DNA of 36,654 bases from a virus. The notes under the pieces were generated by a model. The model had not been told where the DNA came from, made no database searches, and saw only the letters and a list, made by a program, of their open reading frames with translations. The position numbers were made by a program, and so were the translations under genes. The stretch spans positions 1 to 36,654 of the IMG/VR virus record IMGVR_UViG_3300037343_000050; one strand, given 5' to 3'. Position 1 is the stretch's first letter; the number at the start of each line of letters is the position of its first letter. This document shows, piece by piece, positions 1 to 36,654 of the stretch.

Positions 1-1
1 T

Positions 2-40
2 GAAGTGTATTACGCAGTTTGTGAGGAACAACCAAAATGA
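2..40 (+). CDS. 3' end of Rz1-like gene (variant allele, partial)
   Basis: The frame from base 2 reads EVYYAVCEEQPK and stops at 38-40. The complete gene at 32988-33218 ends EVYYAVCEY. The nucleotide differences include synonymous changes (GTG/GTT, TAT/TAC) and an altered tail, so this end represents a different allele of the same gene. The start lies outside the window. Confidence 0.7.
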   Translation, partial: EVYYAVCEEQPK

Positions 41-49
41 GGTGATGTG

Positions 50-232
50 ATGTGGGTTGCTATTGTTTATATGTGTTTTGCTGCCGAATGTTTTTTTATA
101 GATTCTCCACCTGCTCTTACGCAAGAGGGCTGCCTTGAGATGTTGGCTGGGGCAAGTAGGCAACTGGCATCCGACCCTGCTGTTATCGCTTTTGACGGTA
201 AGTGCATTCAGGTGCGAATCAAAGAAAGTTAG
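50..232 (+). CDS. Small membrane/secreted-type phage protein
   Basis: A 60-residue protein with a hydrophobic N-terminus (MWVAIVYMCFAAECFF) that could be a signal or membrane segment, followed by a short polar domain with cysteines. ATG 50 is preferred because GAGG at 39-42 gives a 7-base spacing; an in-frame GTG lies at 47. It is the last gene of the rightward late operon, after the spanin genes. Short proteins with this kind of start are common in aquatic phages, but I assign no function. Its TAG overlaps the opposing TAA of the next gene. The right copy differs at the N-terminus (MWIAVIYM). Confidence 0.7.
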   Translation: MWVAIVYMCFAAECFFIDSPPALTQEGCLEMLAGASRQLASDPAVIAFDGKCIQVRIKES

Positions 233-537
233 TCGTTACCGCATAATGGGTTAGCTCGTTGTCTTGGTTCATTGTTTTTTACCCACAAGATAGGCGGGTG
301 TGTTTTCTCAAACTCATCAACTAACATAGCCAGTGTCCACATCTCTTCTGTTTCAAAGGTCTCTAGCCATCGTGAAAAGCGCTCCCAGTCTCTGTCGTGC
401 ATGGGGTGCAAGGCGATCTCTTGTGGGTATCCTTCGTCCGTATATACGTCTATCCTTCCCGCTGCCCAGCAGTCGCCGTTCTTAGCGATCCAGTCAGTGT
501 TGATCGGACCCATCCAATTTGTTGAGTAACTTATCAT
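229..537 (-). CDS. Conserved phage protein of unknown function
   Basis: A 102-residue soluble acidic protein starting MISYSTNWMGPINTDW, rich in Trp and Asp/Glu, with no transmembrane segment. It resembles a conserved phage hypothetical family I have seen in other genomes, without known function. It is the last gene of the leftward early operon. Its ATG overlaps the stop of the preceding 22-codon mini-gene, and its TAA overlaps the TAG of the convergent gene at 50-232. Confidence 0.75.
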   Translation of the reverse strand: MISYSTNWMGPINTDWIAKNGDCWAAGRIDVYTDEGYPQEIALHPMHDRDWERFSRWLETFETEEMWTLAMLVDEFEKTHPPILWVKNNEPRQRANPLCGND

Positions 538-602
538 CTGTTTTTTTCCTTAAGTTTGGCTTCAACAATTGCTGTATAAAGCACCAATCGCGCCTTTTTC
601 AT
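534..602 (-). CDS. 22-residue mini-gene ending EAKLKEKNR
   Basis: Reads MKKARLVLYTAIVEAKLKEK followed by NR. It starts 5 bases after the stop of the 607-984 gene and its TGA overlaps the ATG of the next gene, which suggests translational coupling. The C-terminus resembles the end of the 6466-6816 protein (AIEAKLKEKNQRR) in both protein and DNA. It may be a real micro-protein or a coupling leader whose AAGGA supplies the ribosome binding site for the next gene. Confidence 0.45.
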   Translation of the reverse strand: MKKARLVLYTAIVEAKLKEKNR

Positions 603-606
603 TGCC

Positions 607-984
607 TCAATTGACACCACTACCTCCGTTCACATTCTCATCAAGCCACTGTTGCACCTCTCCGCCAGACCACATCTTGCGTAGCATGGTGGGAAATACA
701 ATGCGCTCGCGCTGGTCTTCAATCGCGTCATCTAGCGCCTCCATGGCGTCCATCTCCGCCTCATACTGTTCGGCACCGGTTAGCGGGTGTGTAGCCGTGT
801 TTTGCAATGCTTTTAACGCCAGCTTCATTGCTCCAAGTGCAGGAATAGGATGAAACCCATCCAGTTTACAAAGTTCGCTCATGCGATTCTCCTCACTAAT
901 CGTTTCAATCTTCTCACTAATCGTTTCAATATTCTCATCACAAACACAAATCGTTTCCCCGCATACCCTACAATATCCGCTCAT
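607..984 (-). CDS. Zinc-knuckle-like phage protein with two possible starts
   Basis: The 125-residue form begins with a cysteine cluster (CRVCGETICVC, residues 5-15) that could bind zinc. A short internal duplication (NIETISEKIETISEEN) follows, encoded by about 21-bp tandem DNA repeats at 894-937. A second in-frame ATG at 882, preceded by GAGGAG at 6 bases, would give a 91-residue form starting MSELCKLDG. The long form has a purine-rich GGGAGGGAG directly before its ATG. The acidic, helical C-terminal body is shared by both forms. Function unknown. Confidence 0.7.
   Translation of the reverse strand: MSGYCRVCGETICVCDENIETISEKIETISEENRMSELCKLDGFHPIPALGAMKLALKALQNTATHPLTGAEQYEAEMDAMEALDDAIEDQRERIVFPTMLRKMWSGGEVQQWLDENVNGGSGVN
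894..937. repeat. Tandem ~21-bp repeat inside 607-984 gene
   Basis: Two adjacent near-identical copies of a unit containing CTCACTAATCGTTTCAAT, with a degenerate third partial copy to about 956. On the coding strand it encodes the duplicated IETISE segment. It lies between the two candidate start codons, so changes in copy number would alter only the long form. Confidence 0.7.
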
Positions 985-1000
985 CTCCCTCCCCTAATGT

Positions 1001-1041
1001 ATCGTATTTAGGACATTAACGCTGTTAATGCTTTGTTAATG
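1001..1041 (-). promoter_or_regulatory. Candidate leftward promoter with three operator heptamers
   Basis: Three copies of GTTAATG lie at 1014-1020 (inverted), 1024-1030 and 1035-1041. The first two form a perfect 7-bp inverted repeat around a 3-base centre. On the minus strand TTAACA (1028-1023), a 16-base spacer and TACGAT (1006-1001) form a possible promoter whose -35 overlaps the repeat. The gap lies between a winged-helix regulator gene and the 607-984 gene, so local autoregulation is plausible. Confidence 0.45.
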
Positions 1042-1056
1042 GCACACAAATGGTTG

Positions 1057-1314
1057 TTACGCTGCCTTATCTTGACGGTAAGCAGGCTTACAAAGGTTAA
1101 ACGGGTCGTGCAACCTGGTAGTGTGCCCAAACTTAAACGCTTTTTGGTTGTTTAGTTTGATGCGTATCAAATCATTATTAGCAATCATCTCGCCTATGAC
1201 TGAGACAACATGGCTTTTACTGTAGCCAATCTCTTTAGCAATCTCTGCCGAGTCTGTCATACCAGCAGCAATGCACTCTTTTATCAGGTGCGGAACCTTA
1301 GTTCTTTTTTTCAT
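1057..1314 (-). CDS. Small winged-helix DNA-binding protein
   Basis: An 85-residue basic protein from ATG 1314, chosen because GAGGAGAAGG lies just upstream; an upstream in-frame start at 1365 would overlap the previous gene heavily. Residues about 20-52 (DSAEIAKEIGYSKSHVVSV, then IGEMIANNDLIRI) read as a helix-turn-helix plus wing, of the kind used by small phage regulators. It overlaps the preceding gene by ATGA. The repeated GTTAATG sites directly downstream are natural candidates for its binding. Confidence 0.7.
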   Translation of the reverse strand: MKKRTKVPHLIKECIAAGMTDSAEIAKEIGYSKSHVVSVIGEMIANNDLIRIKLNNQKAFKFGHTTRLHDPFNLCKPAYRQDKAA

Positions 1315-1499
1315 GCCTTCTCCTCGGTCAGCGTTCTGAGCGACAGTGCTTTGTACATATCCCACTTCTTTTGTATCTCCGGTTGCTCGCTAGCAGGAAC
1401 CCATCCTCGTGCACGCCAACGTACAGATATGCAAGTTCCAGTCTTTGTATATATGAACTCACTCTCCAAGTTTCTTGCTAAGTCTTCTGTGTGCTTCAT
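1311..1499 (-). CDS. Conserved small phage protein
   Basis: A 62-residue protein starting MKHTEDLARNLES. The middle (WRARGWVPASEQPEIQKKW) looks like a short conserved phage family of unknown function. An AAGGAGAGG box precedes the ATG. It overlaps the end of the Q-like gene by 41 bases in another frame and the next gene by 4 bases. Confidence 0.65.
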   Translation of the reverse strand: MKHTEDLARNLESEFIYTKTGTCISVRWRARGWVPASEQPEIQKKWDMYKALSLRTLTEEKA

Positions 1500-1812
1500 C
1501 TAACCTCTCCTTAAATTTTTTATGGTTCATGCGTACTCGGTGACTACAGTAATACTCTGACTCGTATGGAAAGCTGATATATCTAGCTTTGATAACAGCC
1601 CTGAGAGTGGCGTTAAGCTCGCACACGCACTTTTCTACTAGCTCTGCGTCTAACAGGTCAGGCTCTATCCTGTCCTCCGTATCGTCGCCCCACACGTCTC
1701 CTGACTCTGGTATGTAAAACCGTTCGGCACTGGCGCAAGTATCTGGGCCCTGGGGTGCTGTGCTACCTTGCATTGCAAACGACCAGTTAACCAAACGATC
1801 TCTTATGCTCAT
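1459..1812 (-). CDS. Putative Q-like late antiterminator / sigma-region-4-like protein
   Basis: A 117-residue protein. The C-terminal half (residues about 55-115) contains LNATLRAVIKARYISFP, then HRVRMNHKKFKERLDEAH. This resembles the sigma-70 region 4-like helix-turn-helix of phage Q/ArpU-type antiterminators. In lambdoid phages Q acts at the late promoter pR' and lets RNA polymerase read through the terminator just after it. A matching promoter-terminator pair is present at 8921-9020. A plain DNA-binding protein is the alternative. The ATG overlaps the stop of the YbcO-like gene. Confidence 0.5.
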   Translation of the reverse strand: MSIRDRLVNWSFAMQGSTAPQGPDTCASAERFYIPESGDVWGDDTEDRIEPDLLDAELVEKCVCELNATLRAVIKARYISFPYESEYYCSHRVRMNHKKFKERLDEAHRRLSKKLGE

Positions 1813-2150
1813 ATCTTTACCTTTTCAGATTCAAATAACCAGCCTATTGTCTTTCGGTGTGCTTCTTCCCACATTTCTACACGTTCTGCTTTACTCAGGT
1901 TCTTGCCTTGGTCAAGCTCCATATGACAAATATTGCACATAGCCGCTATCCTATAGTCCTGAGCTTTTATGCCTCTGCCCTTACCGTCTCGCAACTGGTT
2001 AGAGTGGGCGGCGACCACAGTCCCATCGTTGTAATTCCCACAGGACATACACTCCGGCACCTCTCTTACTAGCTTTAGCAACTTAGGACTTCTGTAGGTT
2101 CCATGCGACACGAACATTCTCCTGTAAGTCATTTGCTGCTTGATCGCCAC
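1809..2150 (-). CDS. YbcO-like (DUF1364) HNH-type nuclease
   Basis: A 113-residue protein with CMSCGNYNDGT, then VAAHSNQLRDG and CNICHMELDQG: two CxxC-type pairs around a His. This matches the zinc-bound HNH/ββα-Me core of the lambdoid YbcO/DUF1364 family, structure-selective DNases found near ninB-type recombination genes. The given start is a GTG at 2150; ATGs at 2132 and 2117 are possible and would shorten the 68-base overlap with the preceding gene. Neighbouring Erf, exonuclease and NinB fit a role in recombination. Confidence 0.65.
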   Translation of the reverse strand: MAIKQQMTYRRMFVSHGTYRSPKLLKLVREVPECMSCGNYNDGTVVAAHSNQLRDGKGRGIKAQDYRIAAMCNICHMELDQGKNLSKAERVEMWEEAHRKTIGWLFESEKVKI

Positions 2151-2295
2151 GAACCCTGCGGATGGTGTTTATGTACCGCTGTCTGCTGTCTCTGTCCGGT
2201 AGCTTGCAGACGTGTTTTGCCTCACACCAAGCCCTCCACTCCTCTGAATCCGTATGTACTTCCTGACCACTTGGTAGGGTTGTTGCTGTAGCCAT
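2083..2295 (-). CDS. Small phage protein (DUF7696-like)
   Basis: A 70-residue protein starting MATATTLPSGQEVHTDSEEW, with CEAKHVCKLPD, RDSRQRYI and RRVRGDQAAND. This pattern is common in phage early regions and I associate it with DUF7696; function unknown. It lies between the winged-helix gene and the YbcO-like gene and overlaps both in other frames. Confidence 0.65.
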   Translation of the reverse strand: MATATTLPSGQEVHTDSEEWRAWCEAKHVCKLPDRDSRQRYINTIRRVRGDQAANDLQENVRVAWNLQKS

Positions 2296-2624
2296 GATGA
2301 TGCAATGTCCGGTTGAATTTTGATGATGGTTAATAATTTTCTTCGCATGTGATTAGTTTGATTAGCACTAGGTCTGTCTGCATCGGAGCTGTTGCCCATC
2401 GACCATAGCGCTCGTGGTGTGCCACCGGTATCTGATTTCCATTCTGATATGTGTATCCTGCCTTCGTGTTTTAGTATTTTAAGGTGGTAAGTAATACGAG
2501 ACTTAGTTGCTGAAAACTCTTGTGCAATATCCTTGACATAACAAGCGCCTTTATGCTTAATATGCCTGATGATTAAATATCGAATATGCATATCAATTAC
2601 AGATCGTTGTGCAAGATGTGCCAT
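2169..2624 (-). CDS. Winged-helix (ArsR-like) DNA-binding regulator
   Basis: A 151-residue protein. Residues about 12-70 contain GACYVKDIAQEFSATKSRI followed by YHLKILKHEGRIHI, a clear winged helix-turn-helix as in ArsR/MarR-type regulators. The last 40 or so residues (from LQQQPYQVV on) are read across the start of the 2083-2295 gene in another frame and look unlike a folded domain. Either a genuine overprinted tail exists or the ancestral stop was lost. Its ATG overlaps the cysteine-rich peptide gene by 32 bases. Confidence 0.65.
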   Translation of the reverse strand: MAHLAQRSVIDMHIRYLIIRHIKHKGACYVKDIAQEFSATKSRITYHLKILKHEGRIHISEWKSDTGGTPRALWSMGNSSDADRPSANQTNHMRRKLLTIIKIQPDIASSWLQQQPYQVVRKYIRIQRSGGLGVRQNTSASYRTETADSGT

Positions 2625-2742
2625 TACAACAGGTAGTGCAGATGGTAGTCTTACCGTTTATCATAAATATCTGGGTTGTGCAGGCAGCGTAGGCGGCTGT
2701 GACTGCAAACGTTAAGGCGATTCCTAATGCTAATCGTTTCAT
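2593..2742 (-). CDS. Cysteine-rich secreted/periplasmic micro-protein
   Basis: A 49-residue protein. Residues 1-19 (MKRLALGIALTFAVTAAYA) are a textbook signal peptide with a basic N-region, hydrophobic core and AYA cleavage site. The mature part contains CTTQIF, ICTTCCNGTSC and TTIC: six cysteines after the signal. The ATG overlaps the NinB stop (ATGA). I recall short phage proteins with a CTTCC-type motif from other genomes, without assigned function. The disulphide-rich design suggests an envelope role. Confidence 0.75.
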   Translation of the reverse strand: MKRLALGIALTFAVTAAYAACTTQIFMINGKTTICTTCCNGTSCTTICN

Positions 2743-3092
2743 AGGTGTTGATCCTTAAAATATATCACTTGGTCGATAAAGTGGCTAAATTCGTCTACTG
2801 TTAACTCTGTTGTGCTCGGCTCTGCTTCAGTCACCAACCCGAACGGCATCTCTATTACTCTGCCAGGTAGGAACCTTTCTTTAAAATACCTGTGCCAGAC
2901 CTGTGGCGTAAACTGCTTGCCATCTAGCCAGACTGACTCTGCCACCTCGTGCACAGCCGCCCAATACAGCGCGTTCTGCTCTAGGCTACGGCTTGGCTTT
3001 CTTATCTCTACCACATGGCCATCTGGCGCTTGTGATATCATTTCCATGGCATGAGACCTGTCTGCGGTGAGGCGGAGTATTGTCCGCTCCAT
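2739..3092 (-). CDS. ninB: NinB-like recombination protein
   Basis: A 117-residue protein. The run SRSLEQNALYWAAVHEVAES and the later QFTPQVWHRYFKERFLPG, then TTELTVDEFSHFIDQV, match the NinB/Orf family of lambdoid phages. Lambda Orf/NinB binds single-stranded DNA and substitutes for RecFOR in loading recombinase or annealase. Length fits the family, which is usually about 120-150 residues. It is part of the same leftward operon as Erf and the exonuclease. Confidence 0.85.
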   Translation of the reverse strand: MERTILRLTADRSHAMEMISQAPDGHVVEIRKPSRSLEQNALYWAAVHEVAESVWLDGKQFTPQVWHRYFKERFLPGRVIEMPFGLVTEAEPSTTELTVDEFSHFIDQVIYFKDQHL

Positions 3093-3463
3093 TAGCCTTT
3101 GCCTCTAATGCCAGATGCTAACGAGCGCTCAACTTTTTCTTTATTCCACAATTGATAGTTAATTTTGAACGTTCTGCGCTTGTTGTCGTCTATCTCAAAT
3201 CCCCGTTGCGAGTTCGGTTTAAAGATATTGGCATCAGTAACGCTATACATCTGTCTGTCCATTTGGTTTTTAAAGGCGATGGGGTCTATGTCTATCAGCT
3301 CTAGCCACGGGCCACCGTGCTCGTAGATAAACTCAAAAGCTAAAGCCACGTCCTCCTGTAGCTTTAACCCGTGCTCGGTATCCAAAGGCGGTAGAAAGGT
3401 ATCTGCAACAGCGGAAGCAACAACAGCAGCTATTAGCTTTTCATAGGCTCGGATATCATCCAT
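3092..3463 (-). CDS. Phage early protein of unknown function
   Basis: A 123-residue soluble protein starting MDDIRAYEKLIAAVVASA; the N-terminal half is predicted helical, and the C-terminus is basic (RRTFKINYQLWNKEKVERSL). I do not recognise a domain. It overlaps the upstream transmembrane mini-gene through ATGGATGA and touches the start of NinB, so translational coupling is likely. Confidence 0.7.
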   Translation of the reverse strand: MDDIRAYEKLIAAVVASAVADTFLPPLDTEHGLKLQEDVALAFEFIYEHGGPWLELIDIDPIAFKNQMDRQMYSVTDANIFKPNSQRGFEIDDNKRRTFKINYQLWNKEKVERSLASGIRGKG

Positions 3464-3533
3464 TTTCGATAGCCAGCAACAAGATTACCCACCCTAAGAT
3501 GATAAAGAAACTAGCGCAGGCAATGTATTTCAT
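3456..3533 (-). CDS. 25-residue single-span membrane micro-protein
   Basis: Reads MKYIACASFFIILGWVILLL followed by AIENG: one hydrophobic span filling most of the peptide. Its ATG overlaps the stop of the DUF3310 gene (ATGA) and its stop overlaps the next gene's start. The tight fit on both sides and clear membrane character support it as a real gene. Function unknown. Confidence 0.6.
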   Translation of the reverse strand: MKYIACASFFIILGWVILLLAIENG

Positions 3534-5316: not shown

Positions 5317-5536
5317 TTTCACGCTCCTTAACACGCTGGATATGGCCTTCGACCATGTCTAGTAATTTGCACATATCTTCGTCTGTAGAGTGATAAGACT
5401 GAGCGATATGCACGATTAGGCGTTCTACTAGCACTGGGTCGCAAAAGTAAGCAACCCACCACTCTCGGTCATCCTGTGGGAAGCTATCAGAACCTGCTAA
5501 GGCCGACATTGTTTGGCAGATGTGTTCGATATTCAT
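5303..5536 (-). CDS. Small phage protein of unknown function
   Basis: A 77-residue protein from ATG 5536, which overlaps the stop of the upstream membrane mini-gene (ATGA). It contains WWVAYFCDPVLVERLIVHIA and a helical charged C-terminus. No family recognised. Its end overlaps the erf start by 14 bases. Confidence 0.65.
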   Translation of the reverse strand: MNIEHICQTMSALAGSDSFPQDDREWWVAYFCDPVLVERLIVHIAQSYHSTDEDMCKLLDMVEGHIQRVKERENECV

Positions 5537-5619
5537 AATACGATCCATCCCATGGCCACGAAGGTTACGATGGCTACTGTTACCGCTGCGCCGATGGCGT
5601 ATATTGTGTGGTCGTACAT
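5533..5619 (-). CDS. 28-residue single-span membrane micro-protein
   Basis: Reads MYDHTIYAIGAAVTVAIVTF followed by VAMGWIVL. A strong AAGGAGA box sits just before the ATG inside a leader sequence that is repeated upstream of the operon's first gene. The stop overlaps the next ATG. Function unknown; the strong translation signal argues that it is expressed. Confidence 0.6.
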   Translation of the reverse strand: MYDHTIYAIGAAVTVAIVTFVAMGWIVL

Positions 5620-5620
5620 T

Positions 5621-5647
5621 TGTTTCTCCTTGGTTAGAAACTACATT
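5621..5647 (-). promoter_or_regulatory. Repeated leader/RBS element, internal copy
   Basis: Matches 7441-7467 at about 23 of 27 positions, including AACCAAGGAGA before the start codon and AATGTAG further upstream. Both copies sit immediately upstream of an ATG. Here it follows the HNH gene. It may be a conserved translation enhancer or an early regulatory element. Confidence 0.5.
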
Positions 5648-7182: not shown

Positions 7183-7268
7183 GTTAATTCCTTTATCCGT
7201 TCCCACCCAAGATCGTGCCAAGCCACTGTAGCGGCTTCTATACCGCTACATACAGAAAGGTATTTCAT
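7179..7268 (-). pseudogene. 29-residue remnant of C5-cytosine methyltransferase N-terminus
   Basis: Reads MKYLSVCSGIEAATVAW, then HDLGWERIKELT and stop. The first 22 residues are the characteristic start of phage/bacterial C5-cytosine DNA methyltransferases, where (S/F)xCSGIEA is the SAM-binding motif I. Everything after motif I (PCQ, ENV, target recognition) is absent. It is fitted by ATGA overlaps to the genes on both sides, so it persists as a translated mini-ORF or coupling leader. A perfect 8-bp hairpin lies inside it. Confidence 0.7.
7227..7250. other. Perfect 8-bp hairpin inside methyltransferase remnant
   Basis: TGTAGCGG at 7227-7234 pairs with CCGCTACA at 7243-7250 around an 8-base loop. 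No T-run follows on the minus strand, so it is not an obvious terminator. It could affect early mRNA translation or processing. Confidence 0.5.
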
Positions 7269-7438
7269 TCTGGTTTTTCAGATACAAACTCAAAAATCTC
7301 GGCATCGTCTGGCTGGAAAGTCTCTAGCACATTCCAGTCGTTTTGTTCTAGTGCCACGTCAAACGCATCTTCCTCGTCTGCGTAAACGTAGGTTTCTACT
7401 CTTTGGGTGCGGGTTGTAATAATCCTGTACATATTCAT
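7265..7438 (-). CDS. First gene of early operon, small acidic protein
   Basis: A 57-residue acidic protein from ATG 7438, supported by AACCAAGGAGATACACC directly upstream. The sequence runs MNMYRIITTRTQRVETYVYA, then DEEDAFDVALEQNDW. The β-α layout suggests a small α/β fold. No family recognised. As the promoter-proximal early gene it may act on the host. Its stop overlaps the methyltransferase remnant. Confidence 0.65.
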   Translation of the reverse strand: MNMYRIITTRTQRVETYVYADEEDAFDVALEQNDWNVLETFQPDDAEIFEFVSEKPE

Positions 7439-7440
7439 GG

Positions 7441-7467
7441 TGTATCTCCTTGGTTGATAACTACATT
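7441..7467 (-). promoter_or_regulatory. Repeated leader/RBS element, operon-proximal copy
   Basis: Copy of the element at 5621-5647, carrying AACCAAGGAGA next to the start codon. It abuts the inverted repeat at 7465-7497. It marks the 5' untranslated leader of the leftward early operon. Confidence 0.5.
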
Positions 7468-7513: not shown

Positions 7514-7541
7514 TTCACAAGCAATAAATTTTAGCTATAAT
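7514..7541 (+). promoter_or_regulatory. Candidate rightward promoter for replication genes
   Basis: TTCACA (7514-7519), a 16-base spacer and a perfect TATAAT (7536-7541) form a sigma-70-like promoter pointing to the DUF1376 gene. A leader of about 180 bases follows, holding a hairpin and T-run at 7567-7600. A second TATAAT lies at 7606-7611 with a weaker -35. Confidence 0.6.
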
Positions 7542-7566
7542 TGTGTTGGGTTTCTCCACTTTCTGG

Positions 7567-7600
7567 CTTGCAAGTGAATATTCCTTGCGGGTCTTTTTTT
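7567..7600 (+). terminator. Hairpin plus T-run in rightward leader (attenuator-like)
   Basis: CTTGCAAG (7567-7574) can pair with CTTGCGGG (7584-7591), including two G·T pairs, around a 9-base loop, followed by TC and seven Ts. It is a weak intrinsic-terminator shape located between the promoter and the first replication gene, so it could limit early rightward transcription until antitermination. Confidence 0.4.
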
Positions 7601-7727
7601 GTGTGTATAATTAACAATGCAAGGCTAGGTTATGCAGACCGAAAAGATGGTTATCTCCAGCACCATTCTGCCTTTGTCAACTTAAAAGCTGGATTTGCGT
7701 GTAAGACTAAACACGCTGGAGAGCAAA

Positions 7728-8465
7728 ATGTACTATTACCGTTTTCACATTGGCGACTACAAACGGTCTACCGACCATTTGACAAATGGCGAAGACATTG
7801 CATATCGACGGTTGCTTGATATGTATTACGAAACCGAATCCGTTATCCCGCTAGAAACCAAGCAGGTTGCTAGACGGTTGCGGCTTGATCTTAACGACCT
7901 GCAAATTGTTTTAGATGAGTTTTTTGAGAAAACCGAGCAAGGCTATTTGCACCATTACTGTGAATCTCAAATTCAAGAATACCAAAAAGGTGCAAGTGTT
8001 CGCAGAGTTAACGGTCAAAAAGGCGGTCGTAGAAAGAAAGATAGCCTAGAACAAACCAAGCAGGAACCTGTCAATAACCTAGCAGGTTCCGAGCAGGGTA
8101 GCTTAACCAATAACCATAAACCAATAACCAATAACCATATAAAAGATATGGCCCCGCCTGAAGGCGTGCTTGAATCTGTCTGGGAAGATTTCGTTAATCA
8201 ACGCAAAGCAAAAAAAGCATCAATCACACCAACTGCAATAAAAGGAATAGAACGTGAAGCGCGAAAAGCGGGGATAAGCCTAAATGACGCGCTGCAAGAG
8301 ATATGCTCACGTGGTTGGGCTGGGTTTAAAGCTGACTGGATGACTGATAAAACAAAAACATCATGGGCTGACAAACAAAGAGAATGGGTAGCCGAAGCAA
8401 CCGGAAAGGCATACGAGCCAGACGTTTTTGATATTGCAATAGCACAGACAAGGGGAATCAAATGA
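7728..8465 (+). CDS. DUF1376 replication initiation protein (lambda O-like)
   Basis: A 245-residue protein from ATG 7728, with GGAG 6 bases upstream. Residues 1-85 (YYYRFHIGDYKRSTDHL, then EDIAYRRLLDMYYETE) are a typical DUF1376 domain, found in phage proteins at the position of lambda O. A polar Asn/Gln-rich linker (about residues 112-140) separates it from a helical C-terminal domain. The DNA of the linker carries iteron-like repeats, as in lambda oriO. The stop overlaps the P-like gene (ATGA). Confidence 0.8.
   Translation: MYYYRFHIGDYKRSTDHLTNGEDIAYRRLLDMYYETESVIPLETKQVARRLRLDLNDLQIVLDEFFEKTEQGYLHHYCESQIQEYQKGASVRRVNGQKGGRRKKDSLEQTKQEPVNNLAGSEQGSLTNNHKPITNNHIKDMAPPEGVLESVWEDFVNQRKAKKASITPTAIKGIEREARKAGISLNDALQEICSRGWAGFKADWMTDKTKTSWADKQREWVAEATGKAYEPDVFDIAIAQTRGIK
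8061..8139. other. Candidate replication origin (iterons inside O-like gene)
   Basis: Four AATAACC repeats occur at 8073, 8109, 8123 and 8130, three of them within AACCAATAACCA units (8105-8118, 8119-8130, 8126-8139). An 8-bp inverted repeat, GGAACCTG (8063-8070) with CAGGTTCC (8083-8090), lies just upstream. The location in the linker of the initiator gene matches the lambdoid origin design. Confidence 0.55.
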
Positions 8466-8920
8466 GCTTACCTGTAAACGCAGTAGAAAGATTGTTTCAA
8501 AGATTAACCGCTACCTACGGGGCTGAATTTGTAAACAAATGGGATAAGGTCTCCTTGGTAGACCTCAAGACAGCATGGGCGCACGAACTTGCAGCCTACA
8601 CAACAAACCTAAACGCTCTCGGATGGGCACTGGAAAACCTGCCGGTTAAGGTGCCAAACCTAATTGAGTTTAAACACTTGTGCAAACAAGCCCCTAGACC
8701 TGAATCGATGGCGTTAAGCGAACCAAAAGCTGCTGCTGACGTGGTAGACAGGGAATTAGCTAAGATCGCAGCAGAGGCGTTTAAATCGCCTGTCGATGAC
8801 AGAGGCAACGTTGACCACAAAAGATGGGCTAAGAGGCTAAAGGAGCGTGACAAAGCAGGTGAGAAAATAACGATGATACAAAGGCGGTTTTACCAGGTCG
8901 CTTTAGATGAACTTCGCTAA
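8462..8920 (+). CDS. Putative helicase loader (lambda P-like)
   Basis: A 152-residue protein. The N-terminal half (VERLFQRLTATYGAEFVNKW, then VDLKTAWAHELAAY and LGWALENLPVKVPNLIEFKH) resembles lambda P-type replication proteins, which load host DnaB onto the origin. The C-terminal half is basic and helical. The position right after the O-like initiator with a 4-base overlap supports this. No phage helicase or polymerase is present, so recruitment of the host replisome is expected. Confidence 0.6.
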   Translation: MSLPVNAVERLFQRLTATYGAEFVNKWDKVSLVDLKTAWAHELAAYTTNLNALGWALENLPVKVPNLIEFKHLCKQAPRPESMALSEPKAAADVVDRELAKIAAEAFKSPVDDRGNVDHKRWAKRLKERDKAGEKITMIQRRFYQVALDELR

Positions 8921-8949
8921 TTGCATATCTTTGAAAAACTTGATACTAT
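8921..8949 (+). promoter_or_regulatory. Candidate late promoter (pR'-like, extended -10)
   Basis: TTGCAT (8921-8926), a 17-base spacer and TACTAT (8944-8949), preceded by TGA so that TGn extends the -10. It starts right after the stop of the P-like gene. An intrinsic terminator lies about 40-65 bases past the predicted start site, the arrangement used by Q-dependent late promoters. Confidence 0.65.
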
Positions 8950-8996
8950 TTCCACGGGGCAGTGTTTCTGCTCTCTCCTTGGTTTAGAAGACCTTT

Positions 8997-9020
8997 ACCC
9001 GCTACGTGCGGGTTTTTTTT
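8997..9020 (+). terminator. Intrinsic terminator before late operon (tR'-like)
   Basis: ACCCGC (8997-9002) pairs with GCGGGT (9008-9013) around a 5-base loop; the T-run covers 9013-9020. It is a compact, canonical Rho-independent terminator. Without antitermination the late promoter would yield only a short RNA of roughly 65 nucleotides. Confidence 0.85.
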
Positions 9021-33112: not shown

Positions 33113-33218
33113 GGAGTTGGGCATGGACTTGCCTACCTACTCGGTTAAAGACACGCCAGAGACGCTAGAAAGCGGCGCAAGGTTTATCGAGGTTTACTAC
33201 GCAGTTTGTGAGTATTAA
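32988..33218 (+). CDS. Rz1-like outer-membrane lipoprotein spanin
   Basis: A 76-residue protein from ATG 32988 (GAGAGG upstream). The lipobox LLLLSAC places the lipidated Cys at residue 28. The mature part (TVTNGSETHRTICRELGMDL onward) is not as Pro-rich as lambda Rz1. It starts inside the Rz-like gene in another frame and extends 106 bases past it. The allele at the left window end has a different C-terminus. Confidence 0.75.
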   Translation: MRKRELLKTQRIGRAGLTVTTLLLLSACTVTNGSETHRTICRELGMDLPTYSVKDTPETLESGARFIEVYYAVCEY

Positions 33219-33234
33219 CCAATGAGGTGATGTG

Positions 33235-33417
33235 ATGTGGATTGCTGTAATTTATATGTGTTTTGCTGCCGAATGTTTTTTTATAGATTCTCCACCTGCT
33301 CTTACGCAAGAGGGCTGCCTTGAGATGTTGGCTGGGGCAAGTAGGCAACTGGCATCCGACCCTGCTGTTATCGCTTTTGACGGTAAGTGCATTCAGGTGC
33401 GAATCAAAGAAAGTTAG
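33235..33417 (+). CDS. Small membrane/secreted-type phage protein (right copy)
   Basis: Counterpart of the gene at 50-232, with the start MWIAVIYM instead of MWVAIVYM and the rest the same. It follows the Rz1-like gene and ends the late operon. GAGG lies upstream of the ATG. Confidence 0.7.
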   Translation: MWIAVIYMCFAAECFFIDSPPALTQEGCLEMLAGASRQLASDPAVIAFDGKCIQVRIKES

Positions 33418-33722
33418 TCGTTACCGCATAATGGGTTAGCTCGTTGTCTTGGTTCATTGTTTTTTACCCACAAGATAGGCGGGTGTGTTTTCTCAAACTC
33501 ATCAACTAACATAGCCAGTGTCCACATCTCTTCTGTTTCAAAGGTCTCTAGCCATCGTGAAAAGCGCTCCCAGTCTCTGTCGTGCATGGGGTGCAAGGCG
33601 ATCTCTTGTGGGTATCCTTCGTCCGTATATACGTCTATCCTTCCCGCTGCCCAGCAGTCGCCGTTCTTAGCGATCCAGTCAGTGTTGATCGGACCCATCC
33701 AATTTGTTGAGTAACTTATCAT
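33414..33722 (-). CDS. Conserved phage protein (copy of 229-537)
   Basis: Same protein as at 229-537; last gene of the early operon, with stop codons overlapping the convergent late gene. Confidence 0.75.
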   Translation of the reverse strand: MISYSTNWMGPINTDWIAKNGDCWAAGRIDVYTDEGYPQEIALHPMHDRDWERFSRWLETFETEEMWTLAMLVDEFEKTHPPILWVKNNEPRQRANPLCGND

Positions 33723-33787
33723 CTGTTTTTTTCCTTAAGTTTGGCTTCAACAATTGCTGTATAAAGCACCAATCGCGCCTTTTTCAT
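33719..33787 (-). CDS. 22-residue mini-gene (copy of 534-602)
   Basis: Second copy of the EAKLKEKNR mini-gene, in the terminal repeat. Confidence 0.45.
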   Translation of the reverse strand: MKKARLVLYTAIVEAKLKEKNR

Positions 33788-33791
33788 TGCC

Positions 33792-34169
33792 TCAATTGAC
33801 ACCACTACCTCCGTTCACATTCTCATCAAGCCACTGTTGCACCTCTCCGCCAGACCACATCTTGCGTAGCATGGTGGGAAATACAATGCGCTCGCGCTGG
33901 TCTTCAATCGCGTCATCTAGCGCCTCCATGGCGTCCATCTCCGCCTCATACTGTTCGGCACCGGTTAGCGGGTGTGTAGCCGTGTTTTGCAATGCTTTTA
34001 ACGCCAGCTTCATTGCTCCAAGTGCAGGAATAGGATGAAACCCATCCAGTTTACAAAGTTCGCTCATGCGATTCTCCTCACTAATCGTTTCAATCTTCTC
34101 ACTAATCGTTTCAATATTCTCATCACAAACACAAATCGTTTCCCCGCATACCCTACAATATCCGCTCAT
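33792..34169 (-). CDS. Zinc-knuckle-like protein (copy of 607-984)
   Basis: Same protein as at 607-984, including the tandem repeat and the internal start at 34067. Confidence 0.7.
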   Translation of the reverse strand: MSGYCRVCGETICVCDENIETISEKIETISEENRMSELCKLDGFHPIPALGAMKLALKALQNTATHPLTGAEQYEAEMDAMEALDDAIEDQRERIVFPTMLRKMWSGGEVQQWLDENVNGGSGVN

Positions 34170-34185
34170 CTCCCTCCCCTAATGT

Positions 34186-34226
34186 ATCGTATTTAGGACA
34201 TTAACGCTGTTAATGCTTTGTTAATG
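34186..34226 (-). promoter_or_regulatory. Promoter/operator heptamers (copy of 1001-1041)
   Basis: Same three GTTAATG sites and candidate promoter as in the left copy. Confidence 0.45.
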
Positions 34227-34241
34227 GCACACAAATGGTTG

Positions 34242-34499
34242 TTACGCTGCCTTATCTTGACGGTAAGCAGGCTTACAAAGGTTAAACGGGTCGTGCAACC
34301 TGGTAGTGTGCCCAAACTTAAACGCTTTTTGGTTGTTTAGTTTGATGCGTATCAAATCATTATTAGCAATCATCTCGCCTATGACTGAGACAACATGGCT
34401 TTTACTGTAGCCAATCTCTTTAGCAATCTCTGCCGAGTCTGTCATACCAGCAGCAATGCACTCTTTTATCAGGTGCGGAACCTTAGTTCTTTTTTTCAT
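34242..34499 (-). CDS. Winged-helix regulator (copy of 1057-1314)
   Basis: Same 85-residue protein as the left copy. Confidence 0.7.
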   Translation of the reverse strand: MKKRTKVPHLIKECIAAGMTDSAEIAKEIGYSKSHVVSVIGEMIANNDLIRIKLNNQKAFKFGHTTRLHDPFNLCKPAYRQDKAA

Positions 34500-34684
34500 G
34501 CCTTCTCCTCGGTCAGCGTTCTGAGCGACAGTGCTTTGTACATATCCCACTTCTTTTGTATCTCCGGTTGCTCGCTAGCAGGAACCCATCCTCGTGCACG
34601 CCAACGTACAGATATGCAAGTTCCAGTCTTTGTATATATGAACTCACTCTCCAAGTTTCTTGCTAAGTCTTCTGTGTGCTTCAT
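34496..34684 (-). CDS. Small phage protein (copy of 1311-1499)
   Basis: Same 62-residue protein as the left copy. Confidence 0.65.
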   Translation of the reverse strand: MKHTEDLARNLESEFIYTKTGTCISVRWRARGWVPASEQPEIQKKWDMYKALSLRTLTEEKA

Positions 34685-34997
34685 CTAACCTCTCCTTAAA
34701 TTTTTTATGGTTCATGCGTACTCGGTGACTACAGTAATACTCTGACTCGTATGGAAAGCTGATATATCTAGCTTTGATAACAGCCCTGAGAGTGGCGTTA
34801 AGCTCGCACACGCACTTTTCTACTAGCTCTGCGTCTAACAGGTCAGGCTCTATCCTGTCCTCCGTATCGTCGCCCCACACGTCTCCTGACTCTGGTATGT
34901 AAAACCGTTCGGCACTGGCGCAAGTATCTGGGCCCTGGGGTGCTGTGCTACCTTGCATTGCAAACGACCAGTTAACCAAACGATCTCTTATGCTCAT
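34644..34997 (-). CDS. Q-like antiterminator candidate (copy of 1459-1812)
   Basis: Same 117-residue protein as the left copy. Confidence 0.5.
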   Translation of the reverse strand: MSIRDRLVNWSFAMQGSTAPQGPDTCASAERFYIPESGDVWGDDTEDRIEPDLLDAELVEKCVCELNATLRAVIKARYISFPYESEYYCSHRVRMNHKKFKERLDEAHRRLSKKLGE

Positions 34998-35335
34998 ATC
35001 TTTACCTTTTCAGATTCAAATAACCAGCCTATTGTCTTTCGGTGTGCTTCTTCCCACATTTCTACACGTTCTGCTTTACTCAGGTTCTTGCCTTGGTCAA
35101 GCTCCATATGACAAATATTGCACATAGCCGCTATCCTATAGTCCTGAGCTTTTATGCCTCTGCCCTTACCGTCTCGCAACTGGTTAGAGTGGGCGGCGAC
35201 CACAGTCCCATCGTTGTAATTCCCACAGGACATACACTCCGGCACCTCTCTTACTAGCTTTAGCAACTTAGGACTTCTGTAGGTTCCATGCGACACGAAC
35301 ATTCTCCTGTAAGTCATTTGCTGCTTGATCGCCAC
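34994..35335 (-). CDS. YbcO-like nuclease (copy of 1809-2150)
   Basis: Same 113-residue protein as the left copy. Confidence 0.65.
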   Translation of the reverse strand: MAIKQQMTYRRMFVSHGTYRSPKLLKLVREVPECMSCGNYNDGTVVAAHSNQLRDGKGRGIKAQDYRIAAMCNICHMELDQGKNLSKAERVEMWEEAHRKTIGWLFESEKVKI

Positions 35336-35480
35336 GAACCCTGCGGATGGTGTTTATGTACCGCTGTCTGCTGTCTCTGTCCGGTAGCTTGCAGACGTGT
35401 TTTGCCTCACACCAAGCCCTCCACTCCTCTGAATCCGTATGTACTTCCTGACCACTTGGTAGGGTTGTTGCTGTAGCCAT
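35268..35480 (-). CDS. DUF7696-like protein (copy of 2083-2295)
   Basis: Same 70-residue protein as the left copy. Confidence 0.65.
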   Translation of the reverse strand: MATATTLPSGQEVHTDSEEWRAWCEAKHVCKLPDRDSRQRYINTIRRVRGDQAANDLQENVRVAWNLQKS

Positions 35481-35809
35481 GATGATGCAATGTCCGGTTG
35501 AATTTTGATGATGGTTAATAATTTTCTTCGCATGTGATTAGTTTGATTAGCACTAGGTCTGTCTGCATCGGAGCTGTTGCCCATCGACCATAGCGCTCGT
35601 GGTGTGCCACCGGTATCTGATTTCCATTCTGATATGTGTATCCTGCCTTCGTGTTTTAGTATTTTAAGGTGGTAAGTAATACGAGACTTAGTTGCTGAAA
35701 ACTCTTGTGCAATATCCTTGACATAACAAGCGCCTTTATGCTTAATATGCCTGATGATTAAATATCGAATATGCATATCAATTACAGATCGTTGTGCAAG
35801 ATGTGCCAT
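35354..35809 (-). CDS. Winged-helix regulator (copy of 2169-2624)
   Basis: Same 151-residue protein as the left copy, including the overprinted C-terminal tail. Confidence 0.65.
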   Translation of the reverse strand: MAHLAQRSVIDMHIRYLIIRHIKHKGACYVKDIAQEFSATKSRITYHLKILKHEGRIHISEWKSDTGGTPRALWSMGNSSDADRPSANQTNHMRRKLLTIIKIQPDIASSWLQQQPYQVVRKYIRIQRSGGLGVRQNTSASYRTETADSGT

Positions 35810-35927
35810 TACAACAGGTAGTGCAGATGGTAGTCTTACCGTTTATCATAAATATCTGGGTTGTGCAGGCAGCGTAGGCGGCTGTGACTGCAAACGTTAA
35901 GGCGATTCCTAATGCTAATCGTTTCAT
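35778..35927 (-). CDS. Cysteine-rich secreted micro-protein (copy of 2593-2742)
   Basis: Same 49-residue signal-peptide protein as the left copy. Confidence 0.75.
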   Translation of the reverse strand: MKRLALGIALTFAVTAAYAACTTQIFMINGKTTICTTCCNGTSCTTICN

Positions 35928-36277
35928 AGGTGTTGATCCTTAAAATATATCACTTGGTCGATAAAGTGGCTAAATTCGTCTACTGTTAACTCTGTTGTGC
36001 TCGGCTCTGCTTCAGTCACCAACCCGAACGGCATCTCTATTACTCTGCCAGGTAGGAACCTTTCTTTAAAATACCTGTGCCAGACCTGTGGCGTAAACTG
36101 CTTGCCATCTAGCCAGACTGACTCTGCCACCTCGTGCACAGCCGCCCAATACAGCGCGTTCTGCTCTAGGCTACGGCTTGGCTTTCTTATCTCTACCACA
36201 TGGCCATCTGGCGCTTGTGATATCATTTCCATGGCATGAGACCTGTCTGCGGTGAGGCGGAGTATTGTCCGCTCCAT
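35924..36277 (-). CDS. ninB: NinB-like protein (copy of 2739-3092)
   Basis: Same 117-residue NinB/Orf-family protein as the left copy. Confidence 0.85.
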   Translation of the reverse strand: MERTILRLTADRSHAMEMISQAPDGHVVEIRKPSRSLEQNALYWAAVHEVAESVWLDGKQFTPQVWHRYFKERFLPGRVIEMPFGLVTEAEPSTTELTVDEFSHFIDQVIYFKDQHL

Positions 36278-36648
36278 TAGCCTTTGCCTCTAATGCCAGA
36301 TGCTAACGAGCGCTCAACTTTTTCTTTATTCCACAATTGATAGTTAATTTTGAACGTTCTGCGCTTGTTGTCGTCTATCTCAAATCCCCGTTGCGAGTTC
36401 GGTTTAAAGATATTGGCATCAGTAACGCTATACATCTGTCTGTCCATTTGGTTTTTAAAGGCGATGGGGTCTATGTCTATCAGCTCTAGCCACGGGCCAC
36501 CGTGCTCGTAGATAAACTCAAAAGCTAAAGCCACGTCCTCCTGTAGCTTTAACCCGTGCTCGGTATCCAAAGGCGGTAGAAAGGTATCTGCAACAGCGGA
36601 AGCAACAACAGCAGCTATTAGCTTTTCATAGGCTCGGATATCATCCAT
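36277..36648 (-). CDS. Early protein of unknown function (copy of 3092-3463)
   Basis: Same 123-residue protein as the left copy; the last complete gene before the window end. Confidence 0.7.
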   Translation of the reverse strand: MDDIRAYEKLIAAVVASAVADTFLPPLDTEHGLKLQEDVALAFEFIYEHGGPWLELIDIDPIAFKNQMDRQMYSVTDANIFKPNSQRGFEIDDNKRRTFKINYQLWNKEKVERSLASGIRGKG

Positions 36649-36654
36649 TTTCGA
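36641..36654 (-). CDS. 3' end of membrane mini-gene (partial)
   Basis: Only the last codons of the gene complete at 3456-3533 are present; the window ends inside it. Confidence 0.5.

Follow-up and report, generated by a model that had tools for sequence, protein, structure and literature searches.

The 6S RNA of phage lambda, the short terminated leader that precedes its late genes, is 194 nt long. In phage 21 the protein Q21 has a fold similar to region 4 of sigma (sigma-R4), to which an N-terminal helix is bound, and a helix with two loops that makes a ring inside the channel through which RNA exits (PMC6606751). In Stx phages a short RNA, StxS, is made between pR' and tR' and binds the stx1B ribosome binding site (RBS) and rpoS (PMC7873438). 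Here we describe a locus of an uncultivated podovirus, found in the IMG/VR virus record IMGVR_UViG_3300037343_000050, whose full 36,654 bases are called the window below. Based on sequence comparisons and structure models, this locus probably is a late-gene switch that works like lambdoid pR'-tR'-Q with a Q21-type protein.

Genome organization

ORF coordinates recur in the window at an offset of 33185 (for example, 1459-1812 and 34644-34997), and therefore the unique genome is about 33.2 kb long with a 3.5-kb end repeat. The two copies of this repeat lie at 1-3469 and 33186-36654, which would fit a genome that is circular or circularly permuted. To the left of about 7.5 kb the genes run leftward and include Erf, exonuclease, NinB and HNH genes. 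A short rightward replication block (7695-8920) follows, and next comes the late block, 24 kb of uninterrupted rightward genes for terminase, portal, scaffold, head, ejection, tail, endolysin and spanin proteins. The portal, scaffold and ejection-protein matches agree with the podovirus label of the original prediction. Neither an integrase nor a repressor was recognised among the scanned window proteins. The main features of the locus are the following.

1459-1812, minus strand: Q-like gene, from the ORF, homologs, profiles and model; also present in the end repeat, at 34644-34997
8921-8926, plus strand: -35 element TTGCAT, from the sequence; TTGC is kept in most lineages and unclear in L223
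8944-8949, plus strand: -10 element TACTAT (TANNAT in relatives), from the sequence and relatives
8956-8974, plus strand: predicted transcription start and 5' hairpin P1 (GGGGCAGTGTTTCTGCTCT), which forms at the 5' end or beside it in every leader examined
8960-8965, plus strand: candidate -10-like (sigma-dependent pause) element CAGTGT, suggested by the invariant AGTGTTT block and the Q21 literature (PMC6606751)
8974-8984, plus strand: conserved leader block TCTCCTTGGTT, with CUCCUU predicted mostly unpaired, from the alignment, folds and complementarity to early RBSs
8997-9020, plus strand: putative intrinsic terminator with a 6-bp stem and 8 T, from the sequence, terminator scan and folds
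9034 to about 33112, plus strand: late gene block behind the promoter-terminator unit, from the ORF list and protein matches

A conserved promoter-terminator unit

The original prediction placed an extended -10 promoter right after the replication genes. The promoter is found there, immediately downstream of the replication stop at 8920, with a spacing of 17 nt between the -35 and -10 elements and a TGA preceding the latter. Measured against the consensus it is a modest promoter, with 3/6 and 4/6 matches plus TGn, and a generic promoter scan of the window did not list 8921-8949; we accepted it because of its conservation in relatives and not because of its score. Three proteins served to find the relatives: the replication protein, that of 8462-8920 and the portal. 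Their promoters read TTGCAT-17-TATTAT in L106, TTGCAG-17-TATCAT in L162, TTGCGC-17-TATCAT in L011, L013 and L019, and TTGCAT-16-TACAAT in L147, and in all of these CGGGnnAGTGTTT begins 5 nt past the -10 element; L223 shows no clear -35. A conserved TTGC-17-TANNAT sequence, plausibly a sigma-70 promoter, thus precedes the late genes, but the TG extension that had been part of the prediction is not conserved. Within the spacer an A-tract alone is common to the lineages (by eye), and no direct repeat was found among the lineages compared that could serve as a Q binding element (QBE) between -35 and -10.

The canonical terminator predicted about 50-65 bases downstream, ahead of all late genes, was borne out: a strong putative intrinsic terminator, kept in relatives, lies between the promoter and the late block. 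Its arms ACCCGC and GCGGGT enclose a TACGT loop at 8997-9013 and its T tract occupies 9013-9020 (ACCCGCTACGTGCGGGT plus T8), so that the predicted RNA, from about 8956 to 9020, measures 65 nt. The 33.2-kb unique genome has just two strong terminators, at 7593 and 9012, both on the plus strand, against an expected mean of 0.27 over 30 dinucleotide shuffles. Relatives keep the pairing of the terminator stem although the letters of stem and loop vary (covariation); in L106 the arms are unchanged and the loop is different.

In the relatives the unit consists of the promoter, the block TANNATTTNNNCGGGNNAGTGTTT and the covarying terminator. A pattern scan with CGGGNNAGTGTTT...CTCCTTGGTT gave 20 stretches, which together with the loci found earlier make up 16 distinct contexts, and the terminator follows in all 16. 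A second scan with TANNATTTNNNCGGGNNAGTGTTT returned the same loci plus the L147 variant, and also L240 and L243, which lack the architecture of the unit. The search for annotated phages closely related over the intergenic region found none. When genome contigs were scanned for the promoter/ITS block, the 23 matches were near chance level and among those listed none had the P1-terminator architecture, so no host was found.

The Q-like gene and its association with the unit

The Q-like gene predicted at 1459-1812 is a real, conserved gene on the minus strand, with homologs of 36-98% identity. It lies in the leftward recombination/nin-like operon, near the NinB and HNH genes. No Q family was matched by sequence in Pfam or the PDB, where sigma region 4 alone came up, at E 0.02-0.16, and the Pfam search with the homologs gave a single sigma-70 region 4 match (0.02). 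Ten of the 19 homologs matched phrog_36, annotated as transcriptional regulator (best 1.6e-6), and 10 matched phrog_248, annotated as transcriptional activator (best 0.0015). In the AlphaFold (AF2) model a helix at residues 3-15 and a low-confidence linker precede helices 53-115, which form a predicted sigma-R4-like domain; mean pLDDT was near 55 in four of the five models. Foldseek matched the model to sigma region 4 domains at E above 0.04. The best VIA-align row was Q21 (6p18_Q; Z 9.8, 104 residues, rmsd 5.0), with sigma R4 chains within 1 Z of it (Z 9.4, 62-64 residues). The predicted architecture is compatible with that of Q21.

Six contigs that had been fetched by the Q protein alone (L011, L013, L019, L020, L021 and L024) also bear the unit, several kb from Q and on the opposite strand, as in the window. 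The remaining Q-bearing contigs of the window type stop short of the expected site of the unit, as judged by the match to the replication protein. Over 48 long records, most of them fragments, the raw counts for an association of Q and unit were not significant. Five records (L147, L162, L223, L225 and L227) carry the unit with no Q; these are fragments, so the absence of Q from them is uninformative.

In more distant relatives Q is encoded on the late strand. The usual Q-type layout, with Q directly upstream of pR' on the same strand, is not mechanistically required; it is found in these distant relatives and not in the window. Downstream of Q, on its own strand and no more than 1.7 kb away, a promoter pattern TTG-N16-18-TA...T with GGG at about +1 occurs in 36/66 loci; the reverse strand has it in 7/66 and the region upstream of Q in 1/56. 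The pattern was written after inspecting example sequences, and the 36/66 describes the family and is not a blind test. In L166 and L212 the promoter TTGCAC/T-17-TAAAAT is followed by a GGGC...GCCC hairpin with T8 from about +1, and L164 has a +1 hairpin and then a separate terminator. The distance from Q to the late promoter (L267-L346) falls into classes near 66, 710 and 1500 nt, and one or two inserted genes seem to separate them (glycosyltransferase-like by eye in L212).

A U-tract terminator is absent from 23 of the 36 Q-linked promoters. The first terminator scan behind the distant Q genes scored 13/68 compared with 3/68 on the reverse strand, a low count because many leaders end in AAATTT and not in a U-tract. 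As judged from these sequences, the leader terminator is not universal in the Q family, since some Q-bearing relatives have a +1-hairpin promoter without a U-tract. In L286, L289, L307, L312 and L322 a +1 GGG...CCC hairpin is followed by AAATTT, and the late genes begin shortly after. Another candidate late unit, TTGACA-15-TAGAAT followed by GGGGCC...GCCCC with T7, was seen in L172, L181, L203 and L204; a search of these four records for a Q homolog found none.

Structure of the leader RNA

In all 14 leaders that were folded (z-scores from -2.6 to -4.8), a hairpin at or beside the 5' end is followed by a linker and then by the terminator. RNAalifold recovered only 3 pairs from a MAFFT alignment of the leaders because P1 arms of unequal length were misaligned, and therefore pairs were tallied from individual folds. 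In these tallies, which come from minimum-energy folds of 12 leaders and are thus biased towards pairs, P1 position 4 is GC in nine leaders and AU in three, position 5 is UA, UG or CG, and GC, AU and GU interchange at several positions of the terminator stem. Thirteen of the 14 leaders examined share the sequence CUCCUUGGUU without change, with variable flanks and hairpin arms; the exception is L147, where the block sits inside the P1 loop as CUCCUCCUUG. CUCCUU is predicted to be mostly unpaired and GGUU partly paired in several folds, that of the window among them. The invariant AGTGTTT yields NANNNT at +5 to +10, and by analogy with Q21 this element of the initially transcribed region is a candidate -10-like pause element. 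No Rfam family reached the gathering score in the window, and the sub-threshold matches at the leader were far below the cut-off. Judged by alignment and predicted folds, the leader is a conserved structured RNA outside Rfam, made up of a +1 hairpin, CUCCUU(GGUU) and a terminator.

A putative late switch

In the mechanism that we propose, host RNA polymerase would start transcription near 8956 and, unaided, terminate near 9020, giving the 65-nt RNA. The Q-like protein would accumulate from the early leftward operon and load at the promoter, probably while the polymerase pauses close to it, and the Q-loaded polymerase would then read through into the 24-kb late block. The lambdoid-type pR'/tR' late switch of the original prediction is partly upheld, in that promoter and terminator are conserved as a unit, accompanied by a Q-like gene with a predicted Q21-like fold, but its layout departs from that type, as Q lies on the opposite strand and 7 kb away. 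If correct, this reading extends Q21-type late control by genomics to an uncultivated podovirus group with Q separated from the promoter. The group supplies many natural variants of promoter, leader and terminator.

Complementarity between the leader and early ribosome binding sites

The leader segment 8974-8984, UCUCCUUGGUU, is the exact 11-nt complement of AACCAAGGAGA, which is present at two early RBSs in the window.

7445-7455, minus strand: RBS AACCAAGGAGA of the first left-operon gene (7265-7438, minus strand), an 11-nt complement of the leader
5625-5635, minus strand: RBS AACCAAGGAGA of a 28-aa membrane-like gene (about 5533-5619, minus strand), an 11-nt complement of the leader

Both RBSs have a longer common upstream context, AATGTAGTTnnnAACCAAGGAGA (7445-7465 and 5625-5645, minus strand). 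The 28-aa protein (MYDHTIYAIGAAVTVAIVTFVAMGWIVL), whose gene is too small for the ORF list, has counterparts in L147, L004 and L013-type phages. In the window fold the complementary segment would be accessible in part, with CUCCUU unpaired and GGUU partly paired. The complement extends over 10-11 nt in L105, L106, L107, L131 and L223; the RBS is unchanged in the first four, with a different first gene behind it in several of these, and L223 has two such sites. The L013-type lineage has a 9-10-nt match at the 28-aa gene, and matches of 8-11 nt were found in most, not all, relatives. ACC precedes AAGGAG in 10/30 RBS families of lineages with the element and in 6/80 elsewhere (p = 0.0015), counted by gene family, with families not fully independent (kinship uncorrected) and one of the ten being the element itself.

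These matches raise the possibility, which we regard as a hypothesis that is less likely than not, that the terminated 65-nt RNA acts in trans like StxS, its CUCCUU(GGUU) pairing with early left-operon RBSs and blocking their translation. Besides the StxS precedent (PMC7873438), the invariance of CUCCUUGGUU amid varying flanks and arms, the mostly unpaired state predicted for CUCCUU, the complements at two window RBSs and in several relatives, and the more common ACC extension (with the kinship caveat) all point this way, as does L147, which keeps the block relocated to the P1 loop. However, at its core the match consists of the universal Shine-Dalgarno (SD) sequence and is thus partly expected, L011 and L019 have no match at their first early genes, and the 28-aa gene of L004 and L147 matches more weakly. 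Duplex ranking without accessibility did not pick out these sites either; when RNAduplex paired whole leaders with every start region, long structured duplexes prevailed and the outcome carried no information. Such a role and the late switch could coexist, as rising late transcription would shut off early genes. Somewhat more doubtful is the full proposal that the late leader is a conserved phage anti-SD RNA silencing its own early left-operon genes, one unit both gating late genes through Q and shutting off early genes. If the leader does pair with early RBSs, what the late switch yields as a by-product would itself be a regulator.

That the block might serve as an RBS on the other strand was ruled out, as it is not followed by a conserved start codon. 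A second promoter-terminator pair was observed ahead of the replication genes at 7514-7600 (plus strand), where TTCACA-16-TATAAT precedes a strong hairpin that ends in T7 (7565-7593). In its leader there is a UUUCUCC (UUUCUCCUCC in L105/L106), likewise anti-SD-like, and the pair is kept in L105, L106 and L131 and absent from L107.

Other explanations

Operon-end terminators are common and further promoter-like sites occur downstream, so the terminator might simply end the replication operon, with the late genes free of Q control and transcribed from the weak promoter by readthrough or from others. We consider this unlikely: the terminator has in front of it a promoter and an initially transcribed block that are conserved, lineages with a gene other than this replication gene upstream still show the promoter-hairpin-block-terminator order, and the unit is retained in Q-bearing contigs. 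It also seems improbable that the Q-like protein is a sigma-R4-like activator of the late promoter and not an antiterminator. Its sigma-R4-like domain, the weak PHROG matches to a transcriptional activator and the many Q-linked promoters without a U-tract terminator would fit such a role, but the resemblance to Q21 covers the whole protein including the N-terminal helix, and the window lineage has a strong covarying terminator. Least probable in our judgement is an action of the conserved leader in cis. It might be an antiterminator RNA or a pause hairpin like HK022 put, or its anti-SD block might pair with the SD of the first late gene after readthrough. In favour of this, P1 lies at the extreme 5' end with the block close behind in most lineages, and the window has an SD-like AAGGA after the terminator, but L147 carries the block inside the P1 loop, breaking a fixed hairpin-to-pause spacing, and matches to late SDs are just about 4-5 nt (by eye).

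Comparison with known systems

A late switch governed by the Q-like protein would resemble that of phage 21 (Q21, 21PR', 21tR') in its promoter, promoter-proximal intrinsic terminator and late genes behind, and in its small Q with a sigma-R4-like fold, N-terminal helix and linker, here predicted. It differs in that the window Q is encoded about 7 kb away on the other strand, no QBE direct repeat was recognised and no Q sequence match was found, and in the conserved structured leader RNA of the window unit. With lambda pR'-tR'-Q and 6S RNA it shares a short terminated leader before all late genes and nin-like genes near Q, whereas the window leader is about 65 nt and its Q is not recognisably related by sequence. 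As with StxS, a short RNA would be made between late promoter and terminator, and RBS-directed pairing is proposed; the putative targets here are early genes of the phage itself, whereas those of StxS are the stx1B RBS and rpoS. The AlpA/alpB system of Pseudomonas aeruginosa is, by description, also alike in having a Q-like helix-turn-helix antiterminator and a promoter followed by an intrinsic terminator, but it serves a chromosomal cell-lysis programme.
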